33,061 nucleotides of DNA. Source: Desulfobacterales bacterium (GTDB lineage: Bacteria; Desulfobacterota; Desulfobacteria; Desulfobacterales; JAHEIW01). Shown piece by piece: positions 6,005-23,972 of this stretch (positions within the stretch are counted from its first letter, which is position 1; each line of letters starts with the position of its first letter). The notes beneath the pieces are model-generated. The model made no database searches, had not been told where the DNA came from, and saw nothing but the letters and a program-made list of their open reading frames with translations. The position numbers and the translations under genes are program-made. The stretch is taken from NCBI GenBank assembly GCA_020348305.1, contig CP070746.1, positions 4,311,616 to 4,344,676 of the forward strand. Direction: 5' to 3'.

Positions 6005-6044
6005 ACTAGACAAAGGTGTTATCGAATTGGAACAGGTAGCTTTC

Positions 6045-6090
6045 CCCCTTTAAAGGGGTGAGTATCCAACCCCGAGTCCTTTGGACGCGG
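6045..6090 (+). other. Two consecutive hairpins between the ATPase and binding-protein genes
   Basis: CCCCTTTAAAGGGG (6045-6058) is a perfect 14-bp palindrome. A second hairpin has CCG-A-GTCC (6072-6079), loop TTT, then GGAC-G-CGG (6083-6090). Neither is followed by a T run. Hairpins just before a binding-protein gene often stabilise that part of an ABC operon mRNA, giving more binding protein than ATPase; that role is inferred. Confidence 0.55.
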
Positions 6091-6126
6091 CAGTTTGTTT
6101 CTTAATAACTTGAAAGGAGGATAAAA

Positions 6127-7182
6127 ATGAAATTAGCTAGAGTATTATTGACCATGGTGTTTGTTGTGTGTTTTTCGGCACAGTTTTTCCCGGCGGCGGC
6201 CGGTGAACAGGTAACCGTTGTTGGATGGGGTGGCAATTGGAATAAAGCCTATGAAAAGGGGGTGTGGAAACCCTACATGAAACAGACGGGTGTAAAAATT
6301 ATTCAAGAGGAATGGATGGGTGAAGTTGCAAAGATTCGTGCTCAAGTTCAAGCCGGCAACATTATATACGATATGGTCTCTGTCGAGGCGCCTGGGGCTG
6401 AGATAGGCTGTGCCGAGGGACTGTTTGTGAAACTGCCCCGCTCGGTAACCGGCGATCCGGACAAATATCATCCTGAAACGATACATGAGTGCGGTGTGGC
6501 TTCGGATACCTGGGCGGACGTTATGGTTTACAATGCGGATTTTATTAAAGGAAAAATCCCCAAAAGCTGGGCCGATTTCTGGGATGTTAAAAAATTTCCC
6601 GGTAAACGCCAATTATACGGCCAGGCACAATTCACATTCGAAAACGCCTTGCTGGCAGATGGCGTTCCGGTATCGGAAGTCTATAAGGTATTGCGGAGCC
6701 CCGGCGGCGTTGACAGAGTCTTCAAGGTATTAGATAGAATACGCCCGCATGTCATTTGGTGGAACCAAACGACCCAGGCGATGCAGAATCTTGCGTCCGG
6801 CGAAGTCGTGATGAGCGATGGATTTAACGCTCGCATTACACACGAAATCGAAGCAGAAAAAAAGAATTATGTGATCCTTTGGGAGGCAGGATATTTTTAT
6901 GGCACGGATTTATGGGTCGTGGTAAATGGAGCGCCAAACATGAAGGTGGCCCTTGATCTGCTAACCTGGTTTTCCGAACCGAAAAATCAGGCGGGTTTTT
7001 CCAACAACTTTGCCTATGGCACAGGACGGGTGGAAGCAATCAATTATGTTTCGGAGACAAAACGTGCGCAGTTGCCGACGGCACCGCAAAATATCAAATA
7101 CGGCGCGCCATACGATATCGAATATTGGGTCGAAAACAAAGAAGCACTGGAGAAACGCTTTAAAACCTGGCTGTCGAAGTGA
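6127..7182 (+). CDS. Extracytoplasmic solute-binding protein, PotD/PotF-like
   Basis: Periplasmic binding protein of 351 residues. A Sec signal peptide is clear: MKLAR, a hydrophobic core to about residue 20, then cleavage near PAAAG-EQ. The mature start VTVVGWGGNWNKAYEKG is typical of polyamine/quaternary-amine family 1 binding proteins. Many Trp and Tyr residues (for example WWNQTTQ, YFYGTDLW) would suit a cation-pi pocket, but the ligand is unknown. AAAGGAGG lies 7 bp before the ATG. The stop codon overlaps the GTG start of the next gene by 4 bp, which shows translational coupling within the operon. Confidence 0.9.
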   Translation: MKLARVLLTMVFVVCFSAQFFPAAAGEQVTVVGWGGNWNKAYEKGVWKPYMKQTGVKIIQEEWMGEVAKIRAQVQAGNIIYDMVSVEAPGAEIGCAEGLFVKLPRSVTGDPDKYHPETIHECGVASDTWADVMVYNADFIKGKIPKSWADFWDVKKFPGKRQLYGQAQFTFENALLADGVPVSEVYKVLRSPGGVDRVFKVLDRIRPHVIWWNQTTQAMQNLASGEVVMSDGFNARITHEIEAEKKNYVILWEAGYFYGTDLWVVVNGAPNMKVALDLLTWFSEPKNQAGFSNNFAYGTGRVEAINYVSETKRAQLPTAPQNIKYGAPYDIEYWVENKEALEKRFKTWLSK

Positions 7183-8411
7183 ATGATGGCATCGATGTAA
7201 AAAGCATGCACGACAGAGGCCGTACGCCCTCGCAATGGAAGTACGTCCTTTGCATTGCGCCAATGGCTGTTTTCCTGATCGTTACGTTCTTCTGGCCGGT
7301 TGCCCGCTTTCTCTTCAAATCGGTTGACAACAGCGATCTTGTTTCCAATCTGCCGAGGACGGTCATCGCTCTGGCAGATTGGAAACATACCGACGGCATT
7401 CCTGGCGAAGATGTTTTTGCGGCGCTGGTTCAGGATTTGGCCGATGCCCATGCGAACGGGAAAGACGGAATTGTTGCGCAAAAGATAAATCAGAGAGTGG
7501 TCGGAACCAGATACCTCGTGATAAAAACCGCCAGAATTGCCGCCAAGGGGGGATTTGCGAAGGAAGCGCTGCGCGAGAACGTTCTCAAACGTTTTTCAAA
7601 ATGGGGAAATATCGAACTCTGGTCTGCGATAGCTAATGATCTAAAGCCATTGACAGAATTCTATCTTCTGATGAGCGTTGACTTGCAGAAAAATCCCGAT
7701 GGACATTACGAATCGGTGCCGGAAGAGCAGGCGATCTTTCTTCAGGTTTTCGGTCGGACGGTCTGGATAAGTATTGTGGTAACACTTATCTGCATCGTTT
7801 TGGCACTACCCGTGGCGCATGCCATCGTCGCAGCTCGCCCGAACGTTGCTCGCGTGCTGATTACCCTGATCCTTTTTCCCCTGTGGACGTCGCTTTTGGT
7901 TAGAACTATCATCTGGATGATTCTGCTGCAAGGCAACGGACCGATCAACAGCACGTTGCAGCTGCTGGGTGTAATCAATAAGCCGCTGAATTTGATTTAC
8001 ACTCGATTTTCGCTTTATGTTGCAATGATCCAGGTTCTATTGCCTATGATGATTTTTTCCATTGTGGCTGTTATGCGTCGAATTCCGGTTAATTTAATGA
8101 AAGCGGCGCTTTCTCTCGGATCGCCGTGGCTTTGGGCCTGGTGGCGTGTGCAATTGCCATTGATTATGCCGGGAATTTTTACGGGGAGTGCAATTGTCTT
8201 TGTTTTCGCCCTTGGCTATTACATAACGCCGGCTCTTATCGGTGGACCGAGAGAACAAATGATTTCTTCGTTCATCGCCTTTTATACAAACAAAACACTT
8301 AACTGGGGATTGGCATCGTCTCTTTCGATACAATTGTTATTTCTCCTTGTTCTTGTGTGGCTCATTATGCTGATGAGTCGTTTCGTATTTTTAAAAAGGA
8401 CGGAAAAATGA
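7179..8411 (+). CDS. ABC transporter permease, PotB-like, with long extracytoplasmic insertion
   Basis: Inner-membrane permease of the importer, 410 residues, about 120 longer than a usual PotB. One membrane segment at about residues 23-45 is followed by about 140 mostly polar residues, then the standard five-helix core, with the coupling motif AALSLGSPWLWAWWRVQLPLIMPG. The extra segment lies between helix 1 and the core and is predicted to face the periplasm. The GTG start at 7179 overlaps the stop of the binding-protein gene (GTGA); an ATG at 7206 is an alternative that would shorten it by 9 residues. It ends in a 4-bp ATGA overlap with the second permease. Confidence 0.85.
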   Translation: MNDGIDVKSMHDRGRTPSQWKYVLCIAPMAVFLIVTFFWPVARFLFKSVDNSDLVSNLPRTVIALADWKHTDGIPGEDVFAALVQDLADAHANGKDGIVAQKINQRVVGTRYLVIKTARIAAKGGFAKEALRENVLKRFSKWGNIELWSAIANDLKPLTEFYLLMSVDLQKNPDGHYESVPEEQAIFLQVFGRTVWISIVVTLICIVLALPVAHAIVAARPNVARVLITLILFPLWTSLLVRTIIWMILLQGNGPINSTLQLLGVINKPLNLIYTRFSLYVAMIQVLLPMMIFSIVAVMRRIPVNLMKAALSLGSPWLWAWWRVQLPLIMPGIFTGSAIVFVFALGYYITPALIGGPREQMISSFIAFYTNKTLNWGLASSLSIQLLFLLVLVWLIMLMSRFVFLKRTEK

Positions 8412-9214
8412 TAAGAAATGCTGAAGACGTCCGCAGATGGCTAATGAATTCCGCTACGTGTCTTGTAATTGTATATTTGGTCCTGCCCCTCATCGTGCTG
8501 ATTCCGATATCGTTTACGAGTGGAAATACCTTGACGTTTCCAACTCCCGGCTGGTCTTTGCGTTGGTACAGCGAAGTATTTTCGGACGAGCGTTGGATCA
8601 ATGCATTCTGGAATTCAGTTGTCATAGCCGTGTCTTCGACCTTTATAGCCTCGGTTTTTGGTATTCTTGCCGCGATCGGCCTTACATGGGGCAAAATTCC
8701 AGGCCGAAACCTAATATTTACTTTGGCTGCCACACCTTTGATCGTTCCCGTGGTGATTGTCGGCGTGGCGTCCTTTTCTTTCTATGCAAGCCTTGAGTTG
8801 GTCGGTAACCGCATATCGATTATCCTTACCCATGCAGCATTGTCCGTTCCGATTGTTCTGACGACGATTTCCGCCAGTCTTAGAGGATTCGACCGAACGC
8901 TATTGCGCGCATCCGCCTCTCTAGGGGCGGGATATTGGCGAACTTTTTATAAAGTGCTTCTGCCGATGATTTCTCCGGGAGTAATGACGGGTGCTTTAAT
9001 CGCTTTTATCATTTCATTCGATGAAATTGTCGTAGCAAGCTTTTTATCGATAGGAAGTCAACGCACTTTGCCGCGTCTGATTTTCAGTGGTGTACGAGAA
9101 TCGCTCAATCCCGCCATTGCATCTGTGGCTATGTTACTGATCGTATTTTCGGCATTCGTGCTTGCGCTTGTTGTCTGGCAGCATTCGCGGCGGGTGCGCT
9201 TATCGAATCGTTAA
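8408..9214 (+). CDS. ABC transporter permease, PotC-like
   Basis: Second inner-membrane permease, 268 residues, the normal PotC length. It has about six hydrophobic helices and the coupling motif RASASLGAGYWRTFYKVLLP with the conserved glycine. I chose ATG 8408 because it overlaps the preceding stop as ATGA. An upstream in-frame start at 8357 would add 17 residues that only reflect the other permease read in a shifted frame. It closes the importer operon, and the next gene is convergent. Confidence 0.88.
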   Translation: MIRNAEDVRRWLMNSATCLVIVYLVLPLIVLIPISFTSGNTLTFPTPGWSLRWYSEVFSDERWINAFWNSVVIAVSSTFIASVFGILAAIGLTWGKIPGRNLIFTLAATPLIVPVVIVGVASFSFYASLELVGNRISIILTHAALSVPIVLTTISASLRGFDRTLLRASASLGAGYWRTFYKVLLPMISPGVMTGALIAFIISFDEIVVASFLSIGSQRTLPRLIFSGVRESLNPAIASVAMLLIVFSAFVLALVVWQHSRRVRLSNR

Positions 9215-9274: not shown

Positions 9275-10414
9275 TTAAAGATGTGTAAAAAGAATTTGCG
9301 CTGTTTCACTAATATCTTTGTCTAACCAATAACAAAATTTTTTCGAATCACGTTCTTCAGCGCTTTTTAACATTCCTTTATGCGACGCCACATCCACCAA
9401 ACGCTCGTGTTCTTTCATTTGTCGAAGGAGCATATGGTAATATGGGCTGACGCGATCCCAACCGTCTTCGATCAGTTGTAAAAGATAGGGACGATTGGCA
9501 TCCTTATAGATGGTTCCGTGAAATTGTCGATTCCGCTCCAGCATTTTATCAACATCATTATCCAGGACAGATTTTGAATATCGCTTATAAATATTGTGTA
9601 ATTTTCGAACTGTTGTCTCTCTGAGGATTGGAACGGCGATTTTGGCGATCGTTGTCTCAAGAAGCATGCGGACCTCGATAATTTCTTCAAGATTGTTCCT
9701 TGATAATTGTACGACCTGAACTCCTCCCCTGAATCTTTTCAAAAAACCACGGGCCTCGAGACGACTTAAAGCCTGCCGAACGGGCATCCGGCTAATGCCC
9801 ATCTTCTTTGCGATTTCATCGGCGATAATATTTTTGCCGGGTTTTAGGCGACCCGACAGGATCGCCCGTTCTATTTCCGAAAGGACGGTTTCCTGCAGAC
9901 TCTGCGGTTGAGCTACCGTTTGAAATGCACGATCGATCTCGGTGCTGATTGGTGCTTTATGCCTGGAGGCATCGCGAAAATGAACTTCCCAGGTTTTTCG
10001 CAAACTCAAAATACCCTTGACATTTTTGAGCCCGGCTTTCTTATACCAACTGTTGACGATTTTGTTAACCCTAGCCAATGCAATGTGACTCGACTTGTAG
10101 CTGGAAGAAAAAATGTAATCGTCCTGATCATATTCCCGGGAGGTCGCATATCTATTAAAAGAATTCAAAATGCGACGATTGATGACTATTTCTTTGAAGT
10201 TTCCTGAACTTCCATTGTCTAATACAATTTTATCTCCGGGCTTAAGATTGTAAAAATTGATAAACCTCAACTTAAGAATTTGTCGCGCGGCTGACCCCGT
10301 TTGTGTAACCAGGTCAAATAACAAAAGATCTCTTGGCTGATCTCTCAATATGGATCTGAGTTTTTCGACATCGTTCAGGCTTTTGATCGGTGAGGCATTA
10401 TTGCTGTCCATCAT
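9275..10414 (-). CDS. GntR/FCD transcriptional regulator fused to a degenerate tyrosine-recombinase-like domain
   Basis: 379 residues; FadR-type GntR regulators usually have about 220-240. Residues 171-235 form the winged-helix GntR domain (ETVLSEIERAILSGRLKPG, then MGISRMPVRQALSRLEARG). Residues 240-370 form an FCD ligand domain. Residues 12-150 look like a tyrosine recombinase catalytic fold: RDLLLFDLVTQTG ... LKLRFINF, then YKKAGLKN ... SLRKTWEVHF. The first catalytic Arg position reads Ala, the usual His before LRKT is Ser, and no nucleophilic Tyr follows, so recombination is very unlikely. The start follows AAGG with good spacing. It lies between the importer operon and the aminotransferase, both of which carry the same operator-like sequence, so it is the best candidate to control them. 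Confidence 0.82.
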   Translation of the reverse strand: MMDSNNASPIKSLNDVEKLRSILRDQPRDLLLFDLVTQTGSAARQILKLRFINFYNLKPGDKIVLDNGSSGNFKEIVINRRILNSFNRYATSREYDQDDYIFSSSYKSSHIALARVNKIVNSWYKKAGLKNVKGILSLRKTWEVHFRDASRHKAPISTEIDRAFQTVAQPQSLQETVLSEIERAILSGRLKPGKNIIADEIAKKMGISRMPVRQALSRLEARGFLKRFRGGVQVVQLSRNNLEEIIEVRMLLETTIAKIAVPILRETTVRKLHNIYKRYSKSVLDNDVDKMLERNRQFHGTIYKDANRPYLLQLIEDGWDRVSPYYHMLLRQMKEHERLVDVASHKGMLKSAEERDSKKFCYWLDKDISETAQILFTHL

Positions 10415-10620: not shown

Positions 10621-10650
10621 TTGACATATCCAGGATCCAGAATATATAAA
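10621..10650 (+). promoter_or_regulatory. Promoter with candidate operator before the first aminotransferase, twin of the one at 4705
   Basis: TTGACA (10621-10626), 18 bp, TATAAA (10645-10650). CAGGATCCAGA occupies 10631-10641, exactly as far from TTGACA as in the transporter promoter. Both copies also have TTAACC a few bases after the -10 box. Outside this core the two leaders differ, so the match is unlikely to be a recent duplication. Confidence 0.72.
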
Positions 10651-10712: not shown

Positions 10713-12104
10713 ATGATGCAGCATAATGAAATATTTGAAAACTGGTTTGATAAAAAAGCAGAAGCGTTCAGGCAGCGATGTCCAAATTCAGAAAGGGTCA
10801 ACCGGCATGCTCATGAGTATTTGCCAGGTGGTGATACGCGAACAGCCACATTTTACCTCCCATATCCAGTATACGTGAAAGAGGGTAAAGGGTGTCGATT
10901 CGTAGACATTGACGGTAACGAATATATCGACTTCCTGAACAACTATACCGCCCTTACGCTGGGTCATTGTCATCCATCTGTCGTCAGTGCAATAACCCGT
11001 CAGGCGGGCAAGGGAATATCATTTGCCTCGCCCACCAGGAGTCAGATCGAGCTCGCAGAAATCATTTGCGAAAGGGTGAAATCCATAGACAAGCTAAGGT
11101 TTTGCAACAGCGGTACGGAAGCCACCATGAGTGCGATCCGGGCCGCCAGAATCGTCACAGGGAAAACAAAAGTGGTAAAAATAGAAGGCGGGTATCATGG
11201 GTCACATGACGTGGTGGAGGTGAGCTACAGTCCGGACGCCGCCGAATACGGCCCGATCGAAAAACCGAACAGCGTGCCGCAGAACAAGGGAATCCCGCAA
11301 AGTATTTTACACGAAGTGATCATCATACCCTTCAACAACAAAAAGGTCGCCGAAGAGATTATCGAACGGCAGGCAAGTCAGATAGCATGCGTTATCGTCG
11401 AACCGATGCTCGGTGCAACAGGATGTATATGTCAAGCGGACGGATATTTGGAGCACCTGAGAGAACTGACCAGAAAAAATCATATCATATTGATTTTTGA
11501 TGAAATCGTTACCTTCCGTCTGAACTATCATGCCATGCAGTATCTGTATTCATTGGAACCCGACCTGACGACATTTGGCAAATTAATCGGGGGCGGGCTG
11601 CCTGTCGGCGCTTTCGGAGGTTCTGAAGAGATCATGAACCTGTATTCACCCCTGAATCGCGCTCATGTGGCCCATTCCGGGACTTTCAACGGCAATCCGG
11701 TCACCATGGCGGCGGGAAAAGCCTGCCTGACAGAAATGACGCCTTCTGTATACGATCACTTGAACAAACTCGGTGATGACCTGCGAAACGGCCTGAACAA
11801 TTCTCTCGAAAGGGCCGGAATTAAAGGTGATGTAACGGGTTACGGCTCATTGTCCTGCATTCATTTCAATAAGGAAGAAATTATCGATTACCGATCCGCG
11901 GCAAAAGATAACTTAATGGCTATGGAGCTTGTTCATCTGGAACTGCTGGAAAGAGGGATCAACGTGCCAGCTCGCGGCGGGGAATGCGCAATTTCATCAC
12001 CGATGACTGAAAAGGAGATCGAGGCATTTATTGTTGCCTTTGAAGAATCGCTACTTCAAATTAGGCCGTTTATTGAAGAAACTGCACCCGAACTGTTGTT
12101 ATAA
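10713..12104 (+). CDS. Class III aminotransferase, glutamate-1-semialdehyde aminomutase-like (copy 1)
   Basis: PLP enzyme of 463 residues. Visible motifs are PGGDTRTATFY near residue 40, GHCHPSV, the cofactor-binding CNSGTEATMSAIRAAR, Asp263 in IFDEIVTFR and the Schiff-base lysine in TTFGKLIGGGLPVGAFGG (Lys290). The family contains HemL, but the length (HemL is about 430), the paralogue at 13649 and the catabolic setting argue against haem synthesis. The same branch includes beta-amino acid transaminases. Such an enzyme would supply a beta-keto acid for the BKACE enzyme encoded convergently next door; this is inference. AAGGAGG precedes the ATG. A controlled promoter lies at 10621. Confidence 0.85.
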   Translation: MMQHNEIFENWFDKKAEAFRQRCPNSERVNRHAHEYLPGGDTRTATFYLPYPVYVKEGKGCRFVDIDGNEYIDFLNNYTALTLGHCHPSVVSAITRQAGKGISFASPTRSQIELAEIICERVKSIDKLRFCNSGTEATMSAIRAARIVTGKTKVVKIEGGYHGSHDVVEVSYSPDAAEYGPIEKPNSVPQNKGIPQSILHEVIIIPFNNKKVAEEIIERQASQIACVIVEPMLGATGCICQADGYLEHLRELTRKNHIILIFDEIVTFRLNYHAMQYLYSLEPDLTTFGKLIGGGLPVGAFGGSEEIMNLYSPLNRAHVAHSGTFNGNPVTMAAGKACLTEMTPSVYDHLNKLGDDLRNGLNNSLERAGIKGDVTGYGSLSCIHFNKEEIIDYRSAAKDNLMAMELVHLELLERGINVPARGGECAISSPMTEKEIEAFIVAFEESLLQIRPFIEETAPELLL

Positions 12105-12200
12105 TCAATTTAAGATTTATTGGACCATACGAAGATCACGTATCCAGTAGCTGGGTGCTATCTGGTATGTTTGGGCCCTTCTGATTCTGCCCTTTTTTGC

Positions 12201-13172
12201 TTATGGATAGATGCTTGCTGTTTCTGATATTCCCAGGATCTTGCGGGCCTGCTGGGGAGTGGCAATTTCACGGTTAAGCTCCCGGGCAATACGCACCGCA
12301 CGCTCAACGACCTGGGCATTGCTTTTCAGCTTTTCTCCCCGCCGGTAGTAGATATTGTCTTCCATGCCGACACGCACATGGCCCCCCATCAAAGTGGCTA
12401 GTGTTGTCAGGGGAAGCTGAAACTGACCGATGCCTGAGCACAACCATAAACTGCCCTCGGGTAATTCCCGCAGCAGCACGATAACATTTTCGACCGTCGG
12501 GAAACTGGAAGTCTGGACACCCATCACCGTTTGGACCCAGTACGGTTTTTCGATCAGATCGTTCTGAATGAGATCCCGGATCACCCAGGCGCCGCCCGGA
12601 TGATACGTCTCTAGCTCGGCCTTGATGCCGCGTTTTTTCATTTCGCCAGCGAATTGGTTCACGATTTTGTACGAAAAGGGCAAACAACCATCATACTCAA
12701 CTTCAGGGTGCGGGTGTGGCAAAGGCGGTTTGCGAGCTTTCATCTTGAATTTACTCATGTCCGGGACAAGGTTCAGGGAGGCTACTTCGGGTCGGGCGTC
12801 GAGACAGCTGAGCCGTTCCTCCATCGTCATGTCCATCCCATCGCCAGTGGTATTGTTGATGATGATATCCGGACAACGTGCGCGCACTTTACGGTTGACC
12901 TCGAGCCAATCCTTGGTGGTGCGGGCGTAGTTAGCTAAATTGTTTGGATCACGGACGTGGATATGCACCATCGACGCGCCGGCCTGATATGCCGCGTATA
13001 CCGAATCGGCTATTTCATCGGCCGTCTCCGGCAAATTACTGTTATATTCCTTGCCCTGTATACCGCCGTTACAAGCCACGCAGATGATCAGCGGCGGCAT
13101 CCCTTCTACGGCGCGCTCCATGAATTCATAGGAGTCCGCGTACTTCCAGAGATAGCTTTCGTATTCAGCCAT
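12201..13172 (-). CDS. Beta-keto acid cleavage enzyme (BKACE, DUF849), copy 1
   Basis: TIM-barrel zinc enzyme of 323 residues. BKACE enzymes condense a beta-keto acid with acetyl-CoA and cleave it to acetoacetate plus a new acyl-CoA; the best-known member is Kce of lysine fermentation. The zinc ligands are visible as His70 and His72 in AGASMVHIHVRD, with the glutamate in RVGMEDN near the C-terminus. A GGAG box lies 8 bp before the ATG. It is convergent with the first aminotransferase and on the same strand as the second aminotransferase and mttB homologue, from which it is separated by a dehydrogenase gene fragment. It has a paralogue at 17973. The side-chain specificity is unknown. Confidence 0.88.
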   Translation of the reverse strand: MAEYESYLWKYADSYEFMERAVEGMPPLIICVACNGGIQGKEYNSNLPETADEIADSVYAAYQAGASMVHIHVRDPNNLANYARTTKDWLEVNRKVRARCPDIIINNTTGDGMDMTMEERLSCLDARPEVASLNLVPDMSKFKMKARKPPLPHPHPEVEYDGCLPFSYKIVNQFAGEMKKRGIKAELETYHPGGAWVIRDLIQNDLIEKPYWVQTVMGVQTSSFPTVENVIVLLRELPEGSLWLCSGIGQFQLPLTTLATLMGGHVRVGMEDNIYYRRGEKLKSNAQVVERAVRIARELNREIATPQQARKILGISETASIYP

Positions 13173-13339
13173 TTCGAATCTCCTTATCTAAACTTATGTG
13201 TATTCAAATTATTGCGCGATGCTGCAGGTAGCGTGTCCGCCAAACCATGGCACTGATCCCTCTAATGGCTCTTTCCGGTGCGGAAAAAACAGGGAATCCG
13301 GCTCTGCTAAGAGCGGGGCGGCCGGCTTTTTCTTGATCA

Positions 13340-13632
13340 CCGCCGGCGGAAATATCAATCTGGAGGGAGATTACCCATCGATGTTCGAGCCGATCCACGG
13401 GTCGGCACCCAAATATCAAGGCAAGGGTGTGGTCAACCCGGTCGCTACCATTGAATCGATCCGCATGATGATGGAACACCTGGGTGAAATCGAGGCCAGC
13501 CGCGAAATCGAAACAGCCTTAAGCCAAGTTCTTAAAGAAGGTAAGATTAAAGCTCGTGATATGGGAGGTTCCCATTCCACTTCGGAAATGGGGGATGCGA
13601 TAAAATACGTCATTTTAGCGAATAAAAAATAG
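13340..13632 (+). pseudogene. 3' fragment of the tartrate/isopropylmalate-type dehydrogenase gene
   Basis: These 293 bp align without gaps to 4101-4393, including the UAG stop, and differ at about 25 positions by eye. The middle 125 bp (13402-13526 against 4163-4287) are identical, while both flanks differ clearly. Only the last 97 or so codons remain (AGGNINLEGDYPSMFEPIHG and onward), without the N-terminal substrate and cofactor parts. An open frame continues upstream to 13198, but that part is unrelated to the family. It lies on the opposite strand to both neighbours. Probably the remnant of a second dehydrogenase gene. Confidence 0.85.
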
Positions 13633-13648
13633 ACAGAAACATACCGAC

Positions 13649-15040
13649 TTATATTATCAGCTCTGGAGTAGTCTGCTTGATAAAAGGTTTAATCTCGATA
13701 AGCGATTCTTCAAAGGCAGTGAGGAACATCTTGATTTCCTTCTCTGTCATGGGTGTCGAAATAGCTATTTCTCCTCCTCGAGGAGCTATGTTGATGCCCC
13801 TTTCCAGCAATTCCCTATGGAGAAGCGTTATGGCCTGAAAATTTCCCTGAGCATATGTCCTGTAATCCCTAACCCTTTCTTTATTAAAATGAACATGTGC
13901 CAAAGAGCCTAAGCCGATTGCCATTCCCACTACCCCGTTCTTCTCCAAAATCGAATTGATCCCTTGCCTGATGAGCTCTCCAAGGGAATTGATGCGCTCC
14001 ATCGCCGCAGGAGTCAGCTCTTTCAAACAGGCGATTCCCGCCGCTAGCGTCATCGGATTAGCATTAAAGGTTCCTGAGTGGGTAACAGAGCCCTCCTCGA
14101 GCGGAGAAAAAACTTTCATCAATTCACGCGATCCTCCAAAGGCGCCTACGGGGAGCCCTCCGCCTATAACCTTTCCAAATGTCGTCAGGTCAGGCTGAAT
14201 ATCGTATATTCCTTGCCCACCCCCTTGGCCAAGACGAAAAGTCACGATTTCATCGTAAATAAGAATTATACCCAACTCCCGAGTTAAATCCCTAACAAAA
14301 TCAAGGTAACCATCCTCTGCTGGAATACAGCCTGAAATCGCAACCATCACCTCCATAATGACACAGGCGATTTCTTTCTGATGCTCACGAATTATCTTCT
14401 CGGTTGCTTCCTTATTATTAAAAGGTACTGCAATGACCTCGTCCAAAATGCTTTTAGGAACAGCCCTATGCTCGGGAACACTCACGGGTCTATCATTTGG
14501 CCCTGCTTCTTTCAAAACCGGCAAAACGCTCACCTCAGCCAGATCATGACTTCCATGATATGCGCCCTCTATTTTTACAATTCTGCTCTTGCCCGAATTT
14601 AGCCGCGCAGCCCGGATCGCAAACAGTGTGGCCTCGGTGCCTGAGTTGCAAAAACGAACCTGCTCCACCGACTTAATCCTCTCGCAGATCATCCTCCCTA
14701 AGATGGCTTCTTTCTCAGTGGGAGCTGCAAAAGACAATCCCTTATTGGCTTCTTCATTCACGGCTTCTACAATGGCGGGATGGCAATGCCCATGTATGAG
14801 CGCTGTATATTGATTGAGAAAATCTATATATTCATTCCCATCAACATCATACAGCTTACAGCCCTTCCCTTTAGCCATATAAAGCGGGTACGGAGAAAAA
14901 TAAGTGACTGTGCGGGTATTTCCACCAGGAAGGTTTTCTTGGGCCTTCGCAAACAGTCTCGCGGATTCCTTTGTCTCCTTCTTGAACTCTTCATCTTTAC
15001 GATTTATCCATTTTTCAAAGATTGCTTGCTTATCCATCAT
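13649..15040 (-). CDS. Class III aminotransferase, glutamate-1-semialdehyde aminomutase-like (copy 2)
   Basis: 463 residues, the same length as the enzyme at 10713 and alignable along its whole length: PGGNTRTVTYF, CNSGTEATLFAIRAAR, IYDEIVTFR and the PLP lysine in TTFGKVIGGGLPVGAFGG (about residue 290). It is clearly diverged from copy 1, so the two probably differ in substrate or direction. It lies 183 bp downstream of the mttB homologue on the same strand, so it may act on the demethylated product. The upstream Shine-Dalgarno sequence (AAGGGAAG) is moderate. The gap 15041-15223 shows no gene. Confidence 0.85.
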   Translation of the reverse strand: MMDKQAIFEKWINRKDEEFKKETKESARLFAKAQENLPGGNTRTVTYFSPYPLYMAKGKGCKLYDVDGNEYIDFLNQYTALIHGHCHPAIVEAVNEEANKGLSFAAPTEKEAILGRMICERIKSVEQVRFCNSGTEATLFAIRAARLNSGKSRIVKIEGAYHGSHDLAEVSVLPVLKEAGPNDRPVSVPEHRAVPKSILDEVIAVPFNNKEATEKIIREHQKEIACVIMEVMVAISGCIPAEDGYLDFVRDLTRELGIILIYDEIVTFRLGQGGGQGIYDIQPDLTTFGKVIGGGLPVGAFGGSRELMKVFSPLEEGSVTHSGTFNANPMTLAAGIACLKELTPAAMERINSLGELIRQGINSILEKNGVVGMAIGLGSLAHVHFNKERVRDYRTYAQGNFQAITLLHRELLERGINIAPRGGEIAISTPMTEKEIKMFLTAFEESLIEIKPFIKQTTPELII

Positions 15041-15223
15041 TAATTCTTCCCTTTGCCTCGCGAAATTATGAAAGAGGCGGTTTTTAAGTAATCATTCATT
15101 ATGCTTTTCTTTCATGAAAAAATAAAAAGCAGACTCACAGACCCTGACCTAAACAGAACGTATAATTTTCGTTATTATATAAATTTCACCCAATCCCTCC
15201 TCAATACACAAATTTATTTCTCA

Positions 15224-16660
15224 TCACGATCTAATTTCGGGAAACTTCGCTTTTAATTGATTATTCAGACCATTTGATAGACCCAAGGGCTTGTGCTCTT
15301 TGAGGATTTGCTTTGCCATAGCAACCGCATTTTTTTCCACAGTGGGTTTGCCTGATTTTTCCCAATCTTCCCTTAGCTTCCGGTCACTTAACTTCGGAAT
15401 AAAATGCTCCCTTCTCATCCATTTGACCGTATGAGGCTCAGACAAAAAGTTGCCACCCGGGCCAACCTCGCGATAGACATCCAATGCGATGGTCTCGTCC
15501 GTCACCTCAATGCCCCGTACGGCCCGCATGATCATTCCAAGTATCTCATTGTCTATCACATATTGCTTATAGCTGATCATCGTAGCAAACTCGGTTAAGC
15601 CCGCAGCAGCATGGATAATATTAGACCCTGAGAGGCCAATCAAAAGATTCGAGATGGCCCTCTCATAACCATTCTGAACATCAACAACTTTAGAATCGGA
15701 CATACCACCTAATGTGTAGTTGGGCAGGTCAAGATACTGGGCTATCGCTGATCCGGCCGCATTAATTAATCCATTTTCGACGGCTCCTCCCAGAAAACCC
15801 ATCGTCGAAAAATCAGGGGCAGAGCCTGAAATAGCATAGATGACAGGTGTGCCGGGGTTGACAATTTGAGCAAGGGTCAATCCACTTAAAGCCTCGGCAT
15901 GAAGACCCGTTAGAAGACCTGCCAGCGTAACGGGTGCCGTCACGCCAGCCGTAGGTTCCGATGAAAGGTGAACCGGAATCCCGGCTTCAGCAATGCGATA
16001 GAGCATATCGCCGTAAAGTTCGTCTATTCTAAGAGGGGATACCAGAGCAGTGAGGAAGGAGATAAAAGGCCTTTCCTTTAAAGCCTGTGGACTGCCTGTA
16101 ATCATTTCAGCCATCTTAATGATATCGAGGGTTCCTTTGAGCGTAAAAACACTACCCGCAATGTGCTTTGAGGAGTTCATGATAGCTGAGTGAAAACGGT
16201 TAATATCCACTTCATCTTGAGGAAGCTCATTGGGATAGGGTGGAAGAACAATAAAATGGATATTTTCTAAAGCATCCAGCAATCGCACCACGTCTCGAAC
16301 ATCCTGCAAGGTTGTTTGACGAACCTCATCGGTTTCGAGATCGATTATCCGGAGGACAGTCCCTGCCGTTCCAAAATGGACATTCGCGTCCTCGCAGTAG
16401 ATATCGTGTTTCTCTTCCCGGCCGCGAAGAATTATCTTTTTGGGAGCTTTATCAATCGCATCTTCCACCATCGATTTGGGCAATTTTACAAGCTTTTTCG
16501 AGGCGTCGCAGACGGCGCCGAACTTCTGAAATGCCTTGAAGGCTAATTGACTATAGACCTCAACACCTATCTCCGAAAGGATGGTAAAGCTCGCTTCAAG
16601 GATTTTTCTGATCTCACTCTCCTTAAGCGGGCTGTACTGACCACCAACAACAGGTTTCAT
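15224..16660 (-). CDS. MttB-family methyltransferase without pyrrolysine
   Basis: Trimethylamine methyltransferase superfamily, 478 residues, uninterrupted. Family landmarks are GTAGTVLRIIDLET, the SEPTAGVTAPVTLAG barrel segment and GGMSDSKVVDVQNGYERAISNLL. In true trimethylamine MttB a UAG-encoded Pyl lies just after this region; here it reads AAAGLTEFATMISYKQYVIDNE with no UAG. UAG-free relatives include MtgB (glycine betaine) and enzymes for proline betaine, carnitine and gamma-butyrobetaine, so a quaternary amine is the likely substrate and a corrinoid protein the likely acceptor. AGGAGGT precedes the ATG. It ends TGA TGA. It is divergent from the gntR gene at 17007, which is its probable regulator. 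Confidence 0.88.
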   Translation of the reverse strand: MKPVVGGQYSPLKESEIRKILEASFTILSEIGVEVYSQLAFKAFQKFGAVCDASKKLVKLPKSMVEDAIDKAPKKIILRGREEKHDIYCEDANVHFGTAGTVLRIIDLETDEVRQTTLQDVRDVVRLLDALENIHFIVLPPYPNELPQDEVDINRFHSAIMNSSKHIAGSVFTLKGTLDIIKMAEMITGSPQALKERPFISFLTALVSPLRIDELYGDMLYRIAEAGIPVHLSSEPTAGVTAPVTLAGLLTGLHAEALSGLTLAQIVNPGTPVIYAISGSAPDFSTMGFLGGAVENGLINAAGSAIAQYLDLPNYTLGGMSDSKVVDVQNGYERAISNLLIGLSGSNIIHAAAGLTEFATMISYKQYVIDNEILGMIMRAVRGIEVTDETIALDVYREVGPGGNFLSEPHTVKWMRREHFIPKLSDRKLREDWEKSGKPTVEKNAVAMAKQILKEHKPLGLSNGLNNQLKAKFPEIRS

Positions 16661-16814
16661 ATGACCTCCTAATTTTGTTCTTTAACGTCTACCATCTGCA
16701 TTAATATTTCGAGAGCTTTTACATTAGACCCTGCTTTGCAATACATTTTTCCCCAATTGAAAAAAAGCTTTCTTTTGGCGTAATTGCGATACACACCTAA
16801 AATAAAAATATGAT

Positions 16815-16842
16815 TTATGATCAACTATCATTGATGTCAATA
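16815..16842 (-). promoter_or_regulatory. Promoter/operator candidate for the mttB homologue
   Basis: Read on the minus strand, TTGACA (16837-16842) is followed after about 16 bp by an AT-rich -10 candidate (ATAAAT/TAAATC). The spacer holds the inverted repeat ATCAA-N6-TTGAT (16820-16835). The core resembles the GATCAA half sites in the opposite promoter at 16948-16968, which would allow one regulator to control both directions. Confidence 0.5.
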
Positions 16843-16938
16843 AAAACGTTATAATAAAATATTAATAATAATATTAAAAGTTTAGAATTATTTTGTCTGG
16901 AATATTAAAATGCTAAAAATGTTATTATCGAATTTTTC

Positions 16939-16968
16939 TTGACATATTTTTTGATGTTTGATCAAAAA
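16939..16968 (+). promoter_or_regulatory. Promoter/operator candidate for the second gntR gene
   Basis: TTGACA at 16939-16944 overlaps the flank of a perfect inverted repeat TTTTTGAT-GTTTG-ATCAAAAA (16948-16968). A repressor bound here would block RNA polymerase. This fits autoregulation by the GntR protein encoded 38 bp downstream. The -10 box is not clear. The rest of 16661-17006 is very AT-rich and non-coding. Confidence 0.55.
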
Positions 16969-17006
16969 CTAATAAAATTCACATATCACATGGAGATGAT
17001 TTATTT

Positions 17007-17681
17007 ATGAATTTAAATCCTTTAAAGCCAATCAAACATTTGTCACTGAAGGAGACAGCCTATGAAAATATACTAAAGGCCATTACATCGGGCAGATTCC
17101 CACCGGGCAGTCAGATCACCCTATCTGATCTCGCTCAACAACTAGGAGTCAGCCTGATGCCTGTTAGGGAGGCGGTGAGAAAACTCGAGGCCGGAAATTT
17201 AATTCATGTAAGAAAGAACAGGCGAATTATTATAAAGGAATATACCCCCGATGAGCTCAATGAGCTGCTTCAAATTCGCTTGAAACTGGAATTAATGGCT
17301 ACAAGAAAAGCTGTAAAGAATTGCACTGATGAGACGGTTAAAGAGCTTGAACGTATCCAGGCAGAGATGAATTCAGCAAAAGATATTGAAGATTATTTTG
17401 AAAAAAACTGGATATTTCATCATACCATATATCAGACTGCAAATATGCCCATCCTCGAAGGAATTATTAAAGAGTTGTGGTTGCGGGTAAGTCCCTTTCT
17501 GCACATTTATATAGCTGAAGTCCCTAATTATAAATCCTATACCAAACGCACCCATGGCGGAATGATACGTGGATTAAAAAAACGGAATGCCAAGGAAGTG
17601 TGCAAGTATCTATCACTTGATCTAAGACATGCGGCAGATCTCACCACGAGCCTTCTTAAGAAAAGAAAAAATATTACATAG
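17007..17681 (+). CDS. GntR-family (FCD) transcriptional regulator
   Basis: 224 residues, the normal length for FadR-type GntR proteins. The winged helix is at about residues 15-78 (NILKAITSGRFPPGSQITLSDLAQQLGVS, then MPVREAVRKLEAGN) and the helical FCD ligand domain follows to about 215. GGAGATG lies 9 bp before the ATG. It is divergent from the mttB homologue and 291 bp before a BKACE gene, so it probably senses an intermediate of this pathway. The stop codon is UAG; readthrough would add Pyl plus 48 residues with a hydrophobic stretch (TMVAVLIFAFTVHAIM) to a UGA at 17826. The termination outcome cannot be told from sequence. Confidence 0.88.
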   Translation: MNLNPLKPIKHLSLKETAYENILKAITSGRFPPGSQITLSDLAQQLGVSLMPVREAVRKLEAGNLIHVRKNRRIIIKEYTPDELNELLQIRLKLELMATRKAVKNCTDETVKELERIQAEMNSAKDIEDYFEKNWIFHHTIYQTANMPILEGIIKELWLRVSPFLHIYIAEVPNYKSYTKRTHGGMIRGLKKRNAKEVCKYLSLDLRHAADLTTSLLKKRKNIT

Positions 17682-17838
17682 AATGCTTCCCTTGGCTTGT
17701 TGAGAAGAGCTCCATCGGAAAGAAAAGATCTTGATCGCCGCATAACGTTAACTATGGTAGCTGTGCTTATCTTCGCGTTTACTGTTCATGCGATAATGCA
17801 ATGCCGGCCATGCGTAGACGAGAGATGACCTAGGAGCA

Positions 17839-17857
17839 GATTAATGATTTGTTAATC
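17839..17857. promoter_or_regulatory. Inverted repeat upstream of BKACE copy 2
   Basis: GATTAA-N7-TTAATC, symmetrical and about 115 bp before the BKACE start. It may be a regulator site; no protein can be assigned. Confidence 0.35.
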
Positions 17858-17913
17858 GAAAACTCTAAAAAGTTCTTTGCTTTTAGGCAAGAATCTTTCT
17901 AAAGACAAGAGAA

Positions 17914-17928
17914 TTGTATGTTATACAA
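17914..17928. promoter_or_regulatory. GntR-type operator candidate TTGTAT-N3-ATACAA
   Basis: A perfect 6-bp inverted repeat with a 3-bp centre, 44 bp before the BKACE copy 2 start. FadR-subfamily GntR proteins commonly bind TTGTATACAA-like or TNGTNNNACNA sites, and a GntR gene is directly upstream. Binding is inferred. Confidence 0.5.
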
Positions 17929-17972
17929 CGAATTGAAAAATGGCAGATTGATTAAAGAAAGGAGCTAAAGAA

Positions 17973-18923
17973 ATGGCAGAAAAAGAATACCAAGGTGTCT
18001 ATTGGGCGGATTGGGTGGCGAGGCAGACAAAAAATCTAACCATGGACAAGAAGCTATTTATCACAGTTTGTACCACTGGAGCCACCTTTTCCAGAAAACA
18101 CAATCCAAATCAACCTTACTCCCCACAAGAAAATGCAAAGGAAGCTATTGAAGCCTATCAAGAAGGTGCCTGCATGGCTCACATCCATACCAGAGATAAG
18201 AGTGGAAATCCTGAAACCACATTAGAAAGACTGAAGGAAACTATTGGCTCTGTTTTCGAGAAGTGTCCAGACATGATAATACAGCCAAGCGCATATGAAG
18301 GCCTAGATCCAGAATCTCCTAACTATAGTTATGAGGGGATGCAACCCATGGTGGATGCCTTGCATAATATCAGTCAAAAATATATGCAATCTACCATTTT
18401 CGTGCCGATTTCTTATAGTCAGGACATGTTTGTAAGCCTAGCGACGGAGGAAAATACAGTTAAAACCATCGAGTATCTCCAAGCGAATCAAATAAAACCT
18501 GAGTTTATGGGGCATAATTGGGAGGCACTTGTAAATGTGAGAGAGTGGCTCATTAAACCCGCAATTTTAGAAAAGCCTTATTTCATTTCGATGGGTGCGG
18601 GGATGCATAATGCTGCCGATACATATCCGGACCCATGGGGATATCATTATCTTATGGGCATGATTAATATGATGCCGCAGGATACTGTTGTGGGTGCAAG
18701 CATTGGTGGAAGAAATTGGCTGCCGATAACGGTTTTTGCGATCATGCTAGGGGCTGATTTTGTCCGTGTCGGAATGGAGGATCATCTATGGGTATACCCT
18801 CATAAGGACGAAAAAATTAGAAGCTGTGCAGATATGACAAGAAAAATCTCAACTATTGCCCGAGAACTTGGAAGAGACATAGGCACGCCCGATGAAGCAC
18901 GAAGTCTTTTAAAGATTAAATAA
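17973..18923 (+). CDS. Beta-keto acid cleavage enzyme (BKACE, DUF849), copy 2
   Basis: 316 residues. The zinc ligands His70 and His72 are in EGACMAHIHTRD and the conserved glutamate is in RVGMEDHLW near the C-terminus. The N-terminal WADWVARQTKNLTMDKKLFIT precedes the first strand, as in copy 1. It is diverged from the copy at 12201 and so probably handles a different beta-keto acid. A strong GGAG box lies 8-11 bp before the ATG. It starts a packed operon: a 52-codon ORF begins 2 bp after its stop, then a branched-chain-type aminotransferase and a racemase-family gene. The set resembles an amino acid catabolic cassette. Confidence 0.88.
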   Translation: MAEKEYQGVYWADWVARQTKNLTMDKKLFITVCTTGATFSRKHNPNQPYSPQENAKEAIEAYQEGACMAHIHTRDKSGNPETTLERLKETIGSVFEKCPDMIIQPSAYEGLDPESPNYSYEGMQPMVDALHNISQKYMQSTIFVPISYSQDMFVSLATEENTVKTIEYLQANQIKPEFMGHNWEALVNVREWLIKPAILEKPYFISMGAGMHNAADTYPDPWGYHYLMGMINMMPQDTVVGASIGGRNWLPITVFAIMLGADFVRVGMEDHLWVYPHKDEKIRSCADMTRKISTIARELGRDIGTPDEARSLLKIK

Positions 18924-19083: not shown

Positions 19084-20163
19084 ATGAAAATACGGAAAGA
19101 ATTGTTACCGTCTGAAAAACTGAAACCTTTATTTGAGGATGCTACCAAACTCGAATTTGGAAAGAATTACACCGATCATATGTTCTGGATGGAATTTAAC
19201 AGAGAAGGGGGTTGGAAGAATCCGGCAATCAAGCCTTACCAGCCGTTGGTTCTGGAGCCTGCGACCATGATGTTTCATTATTGCCAGGAGGCTTTTGAGG
19301 GGCAGAAAGCCTATCGCTCCCCCAAGAATGAGATTTTACTGTTCAGACCCATAGAAAATGCGCGAAGAATGAATCGCTCAATGACAAGAATGTGCATACC
19401 GGAGATTCCTGAAGAACTCTTTCTTCAGGCCGAGTGCGAACTGCTCAAGGTAGAAAAACGCTGGATCCCGAAACAGAGAGGAACTGCACTCTATATCCGG
19501 CCGGTTGTCATCGCAACAGAAGCGCTTTTAGGGGCTGTGAAACCTTCGGACAATTATCTATTTTTTATCATCCTCTCACCGGTTGGCTTTTTCTTCCAGG
19601 AAGGATTCAACCCTATGGCGCTATGGGTCGAAACGATGTATTCACGCGCCGCATCTGGAGGAACTGGAGAAGCTAAAACTGGAGGAAACTATGCGGGAAC
19701 CATTGCTGCTACTCAGATTGCTAAAAACAAGGGATACAGCCAGGTGCTGTGGCTTGATGCAAAAGAACATCAATATGTGGAAGAAGTTGGGACAAATAAT
19801 ATCTTCTTTGTCATCGACAAAAAGCTGGTAACGCCTCCCCTGACGGGAACCATTCTCCCCGGGGTCACGCGAAAATCCGTTCTTGAGATGGCAGGCGATC
19901 TGGGCATCTTGGCTGAGGAAAGGTTGATTTCTATTGAGAAGCTGGTTGAGGGAATTGAGTCAGGAATGGTGACCGAAGCTTTCGGAGCAGGAACGGCCGC
20001 CGTGATCAGCCCCATAGGGAAAATCGGATACAAAGATGAAGAATATGTCATCAATAATAATGCAACAGGGTACTGGACCAAAAGGTTTTATGATACCCTT
20101 ACAGGTATCCAATACGGCGAGCTGGAAGACAAATACGGATGGGTTTATAAAGTGAGAGAATGA
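19084..20163 (+). CDS. Branched-chain-type (class IV) aminotransferase, IlvE-like
   Basis: Fold-type IV PLP aminotransferase of 359 residues, the size of the large BCAT subgroup. Motifs are YCQEAFEGQKAYR near the N-terminus, RPVVIATEALLG, the PLP lysine in EAKTGGNYAGTIAATQ and YVEEVGTNNIFFV. BCATs convert Leu, Ile and Val to 2-oxo acids with 2-oxoglutarate. In this operon it may act on another 2-amino acid made from the methylated substrate, or simply supply glutamate; that is inference. AAAGGA precedes the ATG. The racemase-family gene follows after 19 bp. Confidence 0.88.
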   Translation: MKIRKELLPSEKLKPLFEDATKLEFGKNYTDHMFWMEFNREGGWKNPAIKPYQPLVLEPATMMFHYCQEAFEGQKAYRSPKNEILLFRPIENARRMNRSMTRMCIPEIPEELFLQAECELLKVEKRWIPKQRGTALYIRPVVIATEALLGAVKPSDNYLFFIILSPVGFFFQEGFNPMALWVETMYSRAASGGTGEAKTGGNYAGTIAATQIAKNKGYSQVLWLDAKEHQYVEEVGTNNIFFVIDKKLVTPPLTGTILPGVTRKSVLEMAGDLGILAEERLISIEKLVEGIESGMVTEAFGAGTAAVISPIGKIGYKDEEYVINNNATGYWTKRFYDTLTGIQYGELEDKYGWVYKVRE

Positions 20164-20182: not shown

Positions 20183-20878
20183 ATGTCAAAGCACGTTGGA
20201 ATAGTCGCGTGTAGCGCCGAAGGTGCTGCGCTATGCTACCGGACATTATGCGCGGAAGCGCCAGCTCTGATGGGCGAACACATGCACCCGGAGGTTTCGA
20301 TGCATACGCACCCTCTGGGTGAGTATATGGTTTACATTCGCTCTGGTAACTGGCAGGAAGTTGCCAAACTAATGCTGTCTTCTGCCCGTAAATTATCAGA
20401 CATCGGAGCACAGTTCGCTATTAGTCCAGACAACACTATTCATCAAGCCTTCGATTTAGTCATAGCAGAATCTCCGATTCCGTGGCTGCACATTGCGGAA
20501 GCCGTGGCTGATGAAGCCAAGACCAATGGCTTTAGAAATTTGGCGATCACAGGTACAAAATACCTGATGACAGGCCCTGTATACCATGAAGTGCTCAAAA
20601 AATTCAGTTTATCCTGTCAAATACCGGATGAAGATGATCGGGAGAAGATCGATACCATTATATTCAAAGAACTCGTCAACGGAGTCTTTCTGGAGGAGTC
20701 AAGGCTGTATTTCAACGAAGTAATTCAGAAGGTTAAGGATAGGGGGTGCGATGCAGTGGTACTAGGCTGCACGGAAATTCCCCTTCTTATTGATCCAAGC
20801 GATTGCCCTCTGCCGACACTAGATTCTACGCGTTTGCTCGCGAGAGCGGCATTGAAAAAAGCTTTGAGAGAAGGCTAG
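20183..20878 (+). CDS. Asp/Glu/hydantoin racemase-family protein with altered first catalytic motif
   Basis: 231 residues, normal family length. The second catalytic cysteine is present in VVLGCTEIPLLID. The first motif, usually PCNTxH, reads ISPDNTIHQAFD, so that cysteine is Asp and no cysteine lies next to it. A two-base racemisation by two cysteines is therefore doubtful; an isomerase, a one-sided racemase or decarboxylase-like chemistry are options. AAAGGAG precedes the ATG. It closes the BKACE-aminotransferase operon. The stop is UAG, and readthrough would add 12 residues including Pyl to a UAA at 20912. Confidence 0.82.
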   Translation: MSKHVGIVACSAEGAALCYRTLCAEAPALMGEHMHPEVSMHTHPLGEYMVYIRSGNWQEVAKLMLSSARKLSDIGAQFAISPDNTIHQAFDLVIAESPIPWLHIAEAVADEAKTNGFRNLAITGTKYLMTGPVYHEVLKKFSLSCQIPDEDDREKIDTIIFKELVNGVFLEESRLYFNEVIQKVKDRGCDAVVLGCTEIPLLIDPSDCPLPTLDSTRLLARAALKKALREG

Positions 20879-22304: not shown

Positions 22305-23690
22305 ATGGGAAAAATACATACACGCTATGGCGATGGTTCTCCCGTTGAGCTTGAGGAAAGCGAAGTCATGCGGGACTTGGAGAACGGCACCCAGGATGCC
22401 GCAGAACGAGGCAACGTTCCGGCGCTTTCCAAGGAAGAAATACAACATCTATTTGATATCTTCAGTTCACCTTACCGGTTCGTGGGTGTGGAACCGGGAA
22501 AAGAAATTGTGCTTTCCTATGATGGGACGCCCATTAAACTCAGCCGCACCCAGGTCAATGTTGATCGACTCCAGTGTCTTCAAATCTATGAAAAGCTTTT
22601 AGGCGCAGACACCCTTGAGATGGGTTATCTGGACTATAGTTTTAAACCGATAAAATCCATGGTAACCTATGAACAACCTCTAATTGAGCAAATACTATCA
22701 GTGACCACCGCACCGGTATTTTATGGTGCCATGCCGAATTTGCCGCTCTATACCCAACCCGACGGCCCCTTTCCAAACCCTGCGGAGCTTTTGCCCCAGG
22801 GGAAAATCGAAGAAGCCAGAGCTTCTTATGAGGAATCCGTTGAACATGCAGTTCGAGACATTGTTTATGTATCCAGCGCTTTGTATGAATGCGGGGCGGA
22901 TGCCATTATCCTGGACACGGTGGGTGCCGCCGGCGATGCGGATTACCTCGCTTCTCTTAAAGCCACCGAAGTCCTTAAAGAAAAATATCCGCAGATGTGT
23001 GTAGAGTTGGGAATGGCCGGAGAATTTGTCTTGGGAATGCATGGAGAGATGACTTACAACGGTGAACTACTGGCCGGCATGTATCCCCACGAACAGGTGA
23101 AAGTGGCGGAAAAAGCCGGCGTGACGATCTTTGGTCCGGTGGTCAATACCAATACGAACGAATCCTCACCCTGGAATGTTTCCCGGGCCATCACATACAT
23201 GAAAGCCTGTTGCGAGGTGGCCAATATTCCCGTGCATGTAAATATGGGCATGGGAGTGGGGGCCATGACCGTGCATGATCACCCACCGCTGGATATGGCT
23301 TCCAGGGCTTCCAAGGCGATGGTAGAGATTTGTCGGCTGGACGGGTTGTAGGTTGGCGTGGGTGATCCGCTTGGCATGGCCATCACGCACGCTGTTGCCT
23401 CGGGAATGGGCGGAATGAGGGCTGCCGGAGATCTGGTGGCTCGCATGCAAATTGCCCGTGGCATGCGAATCGACGAAGCCAAAAAATATGTGGCCGACAA
23501 GCTCAACGTATCTGTTAGGGATTTAACCGATCCGATAATCATGAATGAGGTCCGTGACGATTTAGGGCTGGGAATCCTTCACCCAAATGTTAGATCCCCG
23601 AAGTGCATGGAGGCCAAATTTAACATCGCACGATTGCTGGACATCGAAATCAACTGCGTTAATCGGTTCAAGGAGAAGGCCTCATTGTAA
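22305..23690 (+). CDS. mtbB: Dimethylamine methyltransferase MtbB with in-frame UAG (pyrrolysine), copy 2
   Basis: The frame starts after AAAGGAGG, meets TAG at 23349-23351 (codon 349) and continues to TAA at 23688-23690, giving 461 residues with Pyl. It is collinear with copy 1 and strongly similar in protein (MGKIHTRYGDGSPVEL against MGKIRTRYGDGSPIEL; the same DGL-UAG-VGVGDPLGMA site), but diverged at many silent and some replacement positions, so the duplication is not recent. It transfers methyl from dimethylamine to a corrinoid protein. It lies about 210 bp before tRNA-Pyl and thus next to the machinery it needs. Having two copies may give a split in expression or substrate. Confidence 0.95.
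23349..23351 (+). other. In-frame UAG decoded as pyrrolysine in mtbB copy 2
   Basis: TAG at codon 349, followed by 112 more in-frame codons homologous to known MtbB C-termini. The flanking nucleotides are nearly the same as in copy 1. Confidence 0.94.
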
Positions 23691-23898: not shown

Positions 23899-23972
23899 GG
23901 GGGGTGGATCGTTATGTGATCGTGTGGACTCTAAATCCACGTAGGCGGGTGCAACTCCCGTACTCCCCGCCA
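23899..23972 (+). tRNA. pylT: tRNA-Pyl (anticodon CUA)
   Basis: The 74-nt cloverleaf was folded by eye. The acceptor is GGGGGGT with ACTCCCC (one G-U pair), followed by G and an encoded CCA. There is a single base (23906) between acceptor and D stem. The D stem is GATC/GATC with a 7-nt loop. The anticodon stem has six pairs around CTCTAAA, anticodon CTA at 23931-23933, and a 3-nt variable loop follows. The T stem GCGGG/CCCGT has loop TGCAACT instead of TTCNANT. One base at the acceptor-D junction, the small D loop and the 6-bp anticodon stem are hallmarks of tRNA-Pyl. It supplies UAG decoding for both mtbB genes. Confidence 0.96.

Follow-up and report, generated by a model that had tools for sequence, protein, structure and literature searches.

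Beta-keto acid cleavage enzymes (BKACEs) of the family PF05853 have been described in different catabolic settings. In Pseudomonas, a BKACE and a carnitine dehydrogenase convert carnitine to glycine betaine (PMC12482172), while a BKACE combined with a short-chain dehydrogenase serves deoxyribonate oxidation (PMC6365646). In the variant lysine fermentation, the cleavage enzyme Kce is tied by gene context to Kat, a HemL-like class III aminotransferase that follows the cleavage enzyme and acts only on CoA thioesters (PMC3149608). The characterized MttB-family methyltransferases without pyrrolysine (Pyl) take a single methyl group off a quaternary amine and leave a tertiary amine (PMC8604678, PMC12155760). 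Here we analyze a stretch of 33,061 nucleotides (the window; contig CP070746.1) from the 6.97-Mb single-contig genome of a Desulfobacterales bacterium, in which the interval 10713-18923 holds two class III aminotransferases (AT3a and AT3b), two BKACE-family proteins (BKACE1 and BKACE2), an MttB homologue and a regulator (GntR2). An earlier note had read these genes, together with an importer, as one possible pathway of import, demethylation, transamination and BKACE cleavage. Among openly accessible papers, we found none that joins a transaminase of free beta-amino acids, a BKACE and MttB.

The block is not one operon: its genes fall into four or more groups and occupy both strands. In our best explanation, to which we give a probability of about 0.5, the organism is a specialist for methylated amines and the block is a mosaic of three or more catabolic units, each under its own control; the estimate is limited mainly by the substrates, which are putative. 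In the first unit, the importer and AT3a, which have an operator-like motif in common that is presumably bound by the regulator GntR1, would take up and then transaminate a small beta- or gamma-amino acid. In the second unit, BKACE1 would use acetyl-CoA to cleave a beta-keto acid, yielding acetoacetate and an acyl-CoA; the likely, but unproven, source of this acid would be AT3a or AT3b. In the third unit, MttB, with AT3b behind it, would demethylate some quaternary amine to a tertiary amine by means of a corrinoid protein encoded elsewhere. As part of the mosaic, and at the same even odds, MttB would adjoin a transaminase-BKACE route without opening it. GntR2, BKACE2, a branched-chain aminotransferase and a racemase make up a fourth group, which may act on alpha-amino acids or on something else. 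We infer the substrates, the target of the regulator and any flux between the units; the gene families, the retained residues, the common motif, the dehydrogenase remnant and the lack of the full set in the other genomes searched are observations. All named genes are intact open reading frames in the families given below, according to the reading frame listing and profile searches.

4705-4727, + strand: putative promoter/operator motif TTGACACATACAGGATCCAGATT, 5' of the importer operon (exact match to TTGACANATNCAGGATCCAGANT)
4835-9214, + strand: PotABCD-type ABC importer (NCBIfam), comprising PotA (4835-6004), a binding protein (6127-7182) and two permeases (7179-8411 and 8357-9214)
9275-10414, - strand: GntR1, GntR/FCD regulator with an extra N-terminal domain (PF00392 and PF07729)
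10621-10643, + strand: second copy of the putative promoter/operator motif, 5' of AT3a (exact match to TTGACANATNCAGGATCCAGANT)
10713-12104, + strand: AT3a, class III aminotransferase, predicted beta/gamma-amino acid type (PF00202)
12201-13172, - strand: BKACE1, beta-keto acid cleavage enzyme family (PF05853, 271 bits)
13340-13632, + strand: truncated tartrate-dehydrogenase-like duplicate (91% identity to 4101-4393)
13649-15040, - strand: AT3b, class III aminotransferase, paralogue of AT3a (PF00202)
15224-16660, - strand: MttB, non-pyrrolysine methyltransferase of the MttB superfamily (PF06253, 328 bits)
17007-17681, + strand: GntR2, GntR/FCD regulator (profile match)
17973-18923, + strand: BKACE2, divergent BKACE-family protein (PF05853, 161 bits)
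19084-20163, + strand: branched-chain amino acid aminotransferase, IlvE type II (TIGR01123 and PRK13357 above cut-off)
20183-20878, + strand: Asp/Glu racemase family protein (TIGR00035 above cut-off)

The earlier note had placed two regulators and the importer in the block; GntR2 does lie inside the interval, while GntR1 and the importer are found just outside it, to the left. The branched-chain aminotransferase and the racemase follow on the right.

The importer and the aminotransferases

The 23-nt motif TTGACANATNCAGGATCCAGANT is expected zero times by chance (window shuffles). When up to three mismatches are allowed, it has two sites in the whole genome, upstream of the importer and upstream of AT3a. 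A consensus -35 box overlaps with the motif, and 17-18 nt beyond it there is a TATA-like -10 box. Since the motif is common to both and occurs nowhere else in the genome, the importer and AT3a probably form one regulon. GntR1, encoded between them, is the obvious candidate and presumably their regulator; a search with the classical GntR operator patterns gave no match. The core of GntR1 shares 32% identity with GntR2. In GntR1 (9275-10414) itself, the GntR/FCD part is preceded by an N-terminal extension of about 165 aa, a degenerate recombinase-like domain whose similarity to the phage integrase catalytic domain is weak (Phage_integrase, 21 bits, below the cut-off of 27.1).

The binding protein of the importer (Pfam SBP_bac_8) is closest in the PDB to gamma-aminobutyric acid (GABA)-sensor, opine and polyamine binding proteins. 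About 2.1 Mb away in the same genome (locus L029, 3119-11320), a PotABC-type importer is located near a 44% identical AT3 with the beta-type motif, and creatininase-like and radical-SAM-like genes (identified by eye) lie alongside.

AT3a and AT3b share 57% identity. The top structure match of both (E 1.3e-111 and 6e-119, respectively) is 6K8H, the omega-transaminase StoTA of Sphaerobacter thermophilus, which takes beta-amino acids and a gamma-amino acid (PMC10589169). Other near structures are ForI, glutamate-1-semialdehyde aminomutases and the beta-transaminases of Mesorhizobium and Variovorax. AT3a and AT3b resemble StoTA and the latter two enzymes in the class III fold and in the LPGGxTR motif with its carboxylate-binding arginine. 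R41 of VpAT is the residue that holds the carboxylate group of a beta-amino acid (PMC9850050), and R43 of both AT3a and AT3b aligns with this residue. The aromatic beta-transaminase signature R41/V43/E75/Y76 is incomplete (R/A/N/Y in AT3a, R/V/Q/Y in AT3b), so the substrate preference may differ; 6K8H also has Asn at the E75 position, yet accepts beta- and gamma-amino acids (PMC10589169). Both proteins miss the HemL cut-off, with 392 and 391 bits versus 527 for TIGR00713, and a further, more distant copy in the genome (37%) falls within the range of the HemL genes of other genomes. The best AT3 match beyond the window, among 291 genomes of the class, has 45% identity. AT3a and AT3b thus belong to the type that includes beta-transaminases, as the earlier note had said, on the grounds of their family (PF00202), their best structure and the retained arginine.

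BKACE proteins and their coupling to aminotransferases

We take the zinc ligands of Kce to be H46, H48 and E230, to which E143, R226 and D231 are added, and residues were read from alignments in Kce numbering. BKACE1 keeps these residues and therefore matches Kce in its zinc ligands and catalytic positions, but it has Ile instead of Glu14. BKACE2 retains the zinc ligands, R226 and D231 and differs from Kce by the loss of Glu143, which is Met, and of Asn108, which is replaced as well. Glu143 is present in 25 of the 26 other aligned sequences; in the whole set of 27, it is missing from BKACE2 and from its sole close relative (locus L128), which has Gln. Relatives of BKACE2 are limited to one (43% identity) in 297 genomes, and that gene adjoins an acyl-CoA ligase. 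Of the seven groups into which PF05853 has been divided, two are not BKACEs (PMC4922564). The presence of two BKACE enzymes, claimed before, stands at the level of the family, with the loss of E143 counting against BKACE2.

We compared the gene surroundings in three sets of loci: 13 with BKACE1 homologues (42-55% identity), the 18 nearest MttB loci and 15 AT3 loci. We should note that draft genomes have some short contigs, so that neighbours may be missed, and that phyla besides that of the window were hardly sampled, via plasmid records only. BKACE, MttB and AT3 occur together in none of these loci (0/13, 0/18 and 0/15, respectively). There is no MttB or AT3 beside any of the 13 BKACE1 homologues and no BKACE or AT3 in the 18 nearest MttB loci. 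The co-occurrence check that the earlier note had suggested thus found the full gene set in no other genome searched, an outcome that the note itself had named as refuting, and which here applies to the whole set, although pairs do recur. A BKACE is adjacent to AT3 in three of the 15 AT3 loci (G012, and G055 and G228 from one genus), and a short-chain dehydrogenase gene follows in two of the three. Genomes hold on average fewer than one BKACE, and chance adjacency within 2 kb is expected in well under 1% of loci; the coupling between aminotransferase and BKACE is therefore genuine in at least two lineages. The proposal that transamination and BKACE cleavage belong together is supported, and a transamination feeding BKACE1 in the window is plausible with this outside support. 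The recurring pair of beta-transaminase and BKACE in related genomes represents a testable anaerobic route for beta-amino acid breakdown.

BKACE1 could nevertheless be an unrelated neighbour, brought in by rearrangement, that cleaves an acyl-type beta-keto acid in a fatty-acid-like degradation. Its homologues at 49-55% identity share operons with genes for a thiolase, an acyl-CoA ligase, MaoC and an acyl-CoA dehydrogenase, and its nearest relatives are thus in acyl-CoA (beta-oxidation-like) operons and not in methylated-amine loci. BKACE1 is separated from AT3b by a dehydrogenase remnant of 293 nt (13340-13632), 91% identical to 4101-4393, the 3' end of a tartrate-dehydrogenase-like gene (3302-4393), and it has a GC content of 53% versus 40-49% for its block neighbours. 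The remnant, the higher GC content and the paralogy among the aminotransferases and among the regulators jointly indicate that the region has been shuffled, which makes adjacency a weaker sign of joint function than usual. The recurrence of a BKACE beside this type of AT3 in other genomes argues against an unrelated BKACE1, though the BKACEs concerned are only 32-33% identical to it. We consider this explanation unlikely.

The order known from Cloacamonas, whose variant lysine fermentation has the BKACE act first and the aminotransferase then deaminate a beta-aminoacyl-CoA, is improbable here. The Kat-Kce pair is a known gene-context link (PMC3149608), and it has the linkage of a HemL-like class III aminotransferase and a BKACE gene in common with this locus. 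Kat differs, however, in that it uses thioesters only, after Kce, and is remote from the Mesorhizobium beta-transaminase (24% identity), being inactive on free beta-amino acids (PMC3149608), whereas AT3a and AT3b match that enzyme well and keep its carboxylate-binding arginine. This comparison relies on the published distance of Kat to the Mesorhizobium enzyme (PMC3149608). The Ile at position 14 of BKACE1, where Kce has Glu, also speaks against such an order. Lysine 5,6-aminomutase gave no match in the genome, a weak negative as the control also gave no match.

MttB and the demethylation step

The codon at the pyrrolysine position of MttB is ATG (Met320, 15701-15703), where Pyl-MttB has UAG, and the protein belongs to PF06253; the earlier note had correctly called it UAG-free. 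A match of the Rfam model PYLIS_3 inside the gene (15604-15703; 39.6 bits, threshold 38) was rejected as evidence for pyrrolysine, the codon being ATG. This model reacts to gene homology, and a match alone is no proof of pyrrolysine insertion. The best structures, 9YCE (a glycine betaine methyltransferase) and 2QNE, score about 250 bits, which is too remote to settle what MttB acts on; even at 53% identity, MtyB and MtcB differ in substrate preference (PMC8604678).

The nearest relatives of MttB have 42-49% identity, and most of them adjoin genes for corrinoid proteins, pterin-binding methyltransferases or OpuAC-type transporters, which agrees with the demethylation of quaternary amines. None of these partner genes is encoded in the block. 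There is no corrinoid protein in the window, and the nearest of the 13 PF02607 matches in the genome is more than 230 kb away. MttB is thus like MtgB, MtpB, MtcB, MtyB and MthB in being a family member without Pyl whose relatives' loci carry corrinoid or betaine-transport genes, but unlike them in having no nearby corrinoid or pterin methyltransferase gene, and it reaches at most 49% identity to the relatives found. A linked corrinoid gene is not obligatory, since MtpB, MtcB and MtyB share MtqC (PMC8604678). The closest relative of MttB (49%; locus L115, 3639-8400) adjoins hydantoinase A and B genes and an Asp/Glu/hydantoin racemase gene.

Pyridoxal phosphate-dependent transaminases require a primary amine and cannot use a tertiary one. 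As MttB would leave a tertiary amine, a step from MttB to AT3 needs at least two further demethylations that are not encoded in the block. For MtyB, activity on the tertiary amine that it makes was below detection, and activity on a secondary amine was less than 1% (PMC8604678); choline is demethylated only once (PMC12155760). MtbB-type enzymes, for which there are genes both inside and outside the window, act on secondary amines, and the tertiary step stays uncovered.

This chemistry bears on the linear route of the earlier note, which leads from the uptake of an N-methylated beta-amino acid through demethylation by MttB and transamination by AT3a or AT3b to BKACE cleavage of the resulting beta-keto acid. 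Every enzyme class is present within 14 kb, MttB and AT3b are adjacent and in the same direction, and the five mtbB-type genes of the genome could complete the demethylation. The route is very improbable nonetheless: MttB alone would stop at the tertiary amine, it does not have the motif that the importer has in common with AT3a alone, its corrinoid partner is not nearby, and the full gene set was not found in the other genomes searched. The binding protein of the importer, nearest to GABA- and opine-type receptors, and the acyl-CoA context of the BKACE1 relatives also disagree with this order. Joining MttB and the importer to the transaminase-BKACE scheme is not supported.

The genome also encodes tRNA-Pyl (23899-23972), both PylS subunits (large and small), PylB, PylC and PylD. 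Two mtbB genes (1663-3045 and 22305-23690; 72% identity to each other) contain an in-frame TAG with PYLIS_2 matches, the first lying 99 nt 3' of a GABA aminotransferase gene and the second adjoining the pyl genes; with three more elsewhere, the genome has five mtbB-type genes for secondary-amine methyltransferases. With the help of these neighbouring Pyl genes, an N-methylated beta- or gamma-amino acid could be stripped stepwise, with MttB taking it from quaternary to tertiary, another methyltransferase acting next and a pyrrolysine MtbB-type enzyme going from secondary to primary, before transamination by AT3a or AT3b and cleavage by BKACE1; we regard this whole sequence as highly improbable. 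If true, it would be a complete anaerobic betaine route that feeds the methyl branch and acetyl-CoA.

There is likewise very little chance that MttB acts after a BKACE, which would convert a trimethylammonio-beta-keto acid of the dehydrocarnitine type to betainyl-CoA, with the released glycine betaine being demethylated by MttB: the best MttB structures are glycine betaine methyltransferases and Pseudomonas does pass from carnitine to glycine betaine via a BKACE (PMC12482172), but about 250 bits is too remote for a transfer of substrate when MtyB and MtcB differ at 53% identity (PMC8604678), position 14 of BKACE1 is hydrophobic, and, in line with the earlier note, no carnitine dehydrogenase was seen among the window genes searched by family, the rest of the genome not having been searched for one.

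Counterevidence and related operons

Some observations weigh against the mosaic. MttB, AT3b and BKACE1 are co-directional on the minus strand, with gaps of 183 and 476 nt, and could be co-transcribed. The operator is a putative site, recognized as a sequence match only, and its two copies might partly stem from a duplication. In addition, demethylation and BKACE cleavage can go together, as seen in two genomes of the same family, where FAD oxidoreductases, a corrinoid protein, MttB, a BKACE and another FAD oxidoreductase follow each other in one operon (L067, 7600-15651; L068 likewise). This operon is a stronger case for BKACE-coupled demethylation than the window.

The substrate of most MttB homologues and of many BKACE-family proteins is not known, and genomes like the present one, with 24 MttB-family and five BKACE matches, carry dozens of MttB. 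Fewer assays are worthwhile once the linked genes (the importer and AT3a, the aminotransferase and BKACE) are told apart from MttB, which is adjacent only.

A megaplasmid of Ruegeria pomeroyi (L066, 8914-18234) has a compact operon with MttB, a class III aminotransferase, two FAD oxidoreductases and a thiamine pyrophosphate enzyme. We rejected it as a precedent, its aminotransferase being 33% identical and lacking the beta-type LPGGxTR motif. N-demethylation followed by transamination is plausible for this operon, in an aerobe.

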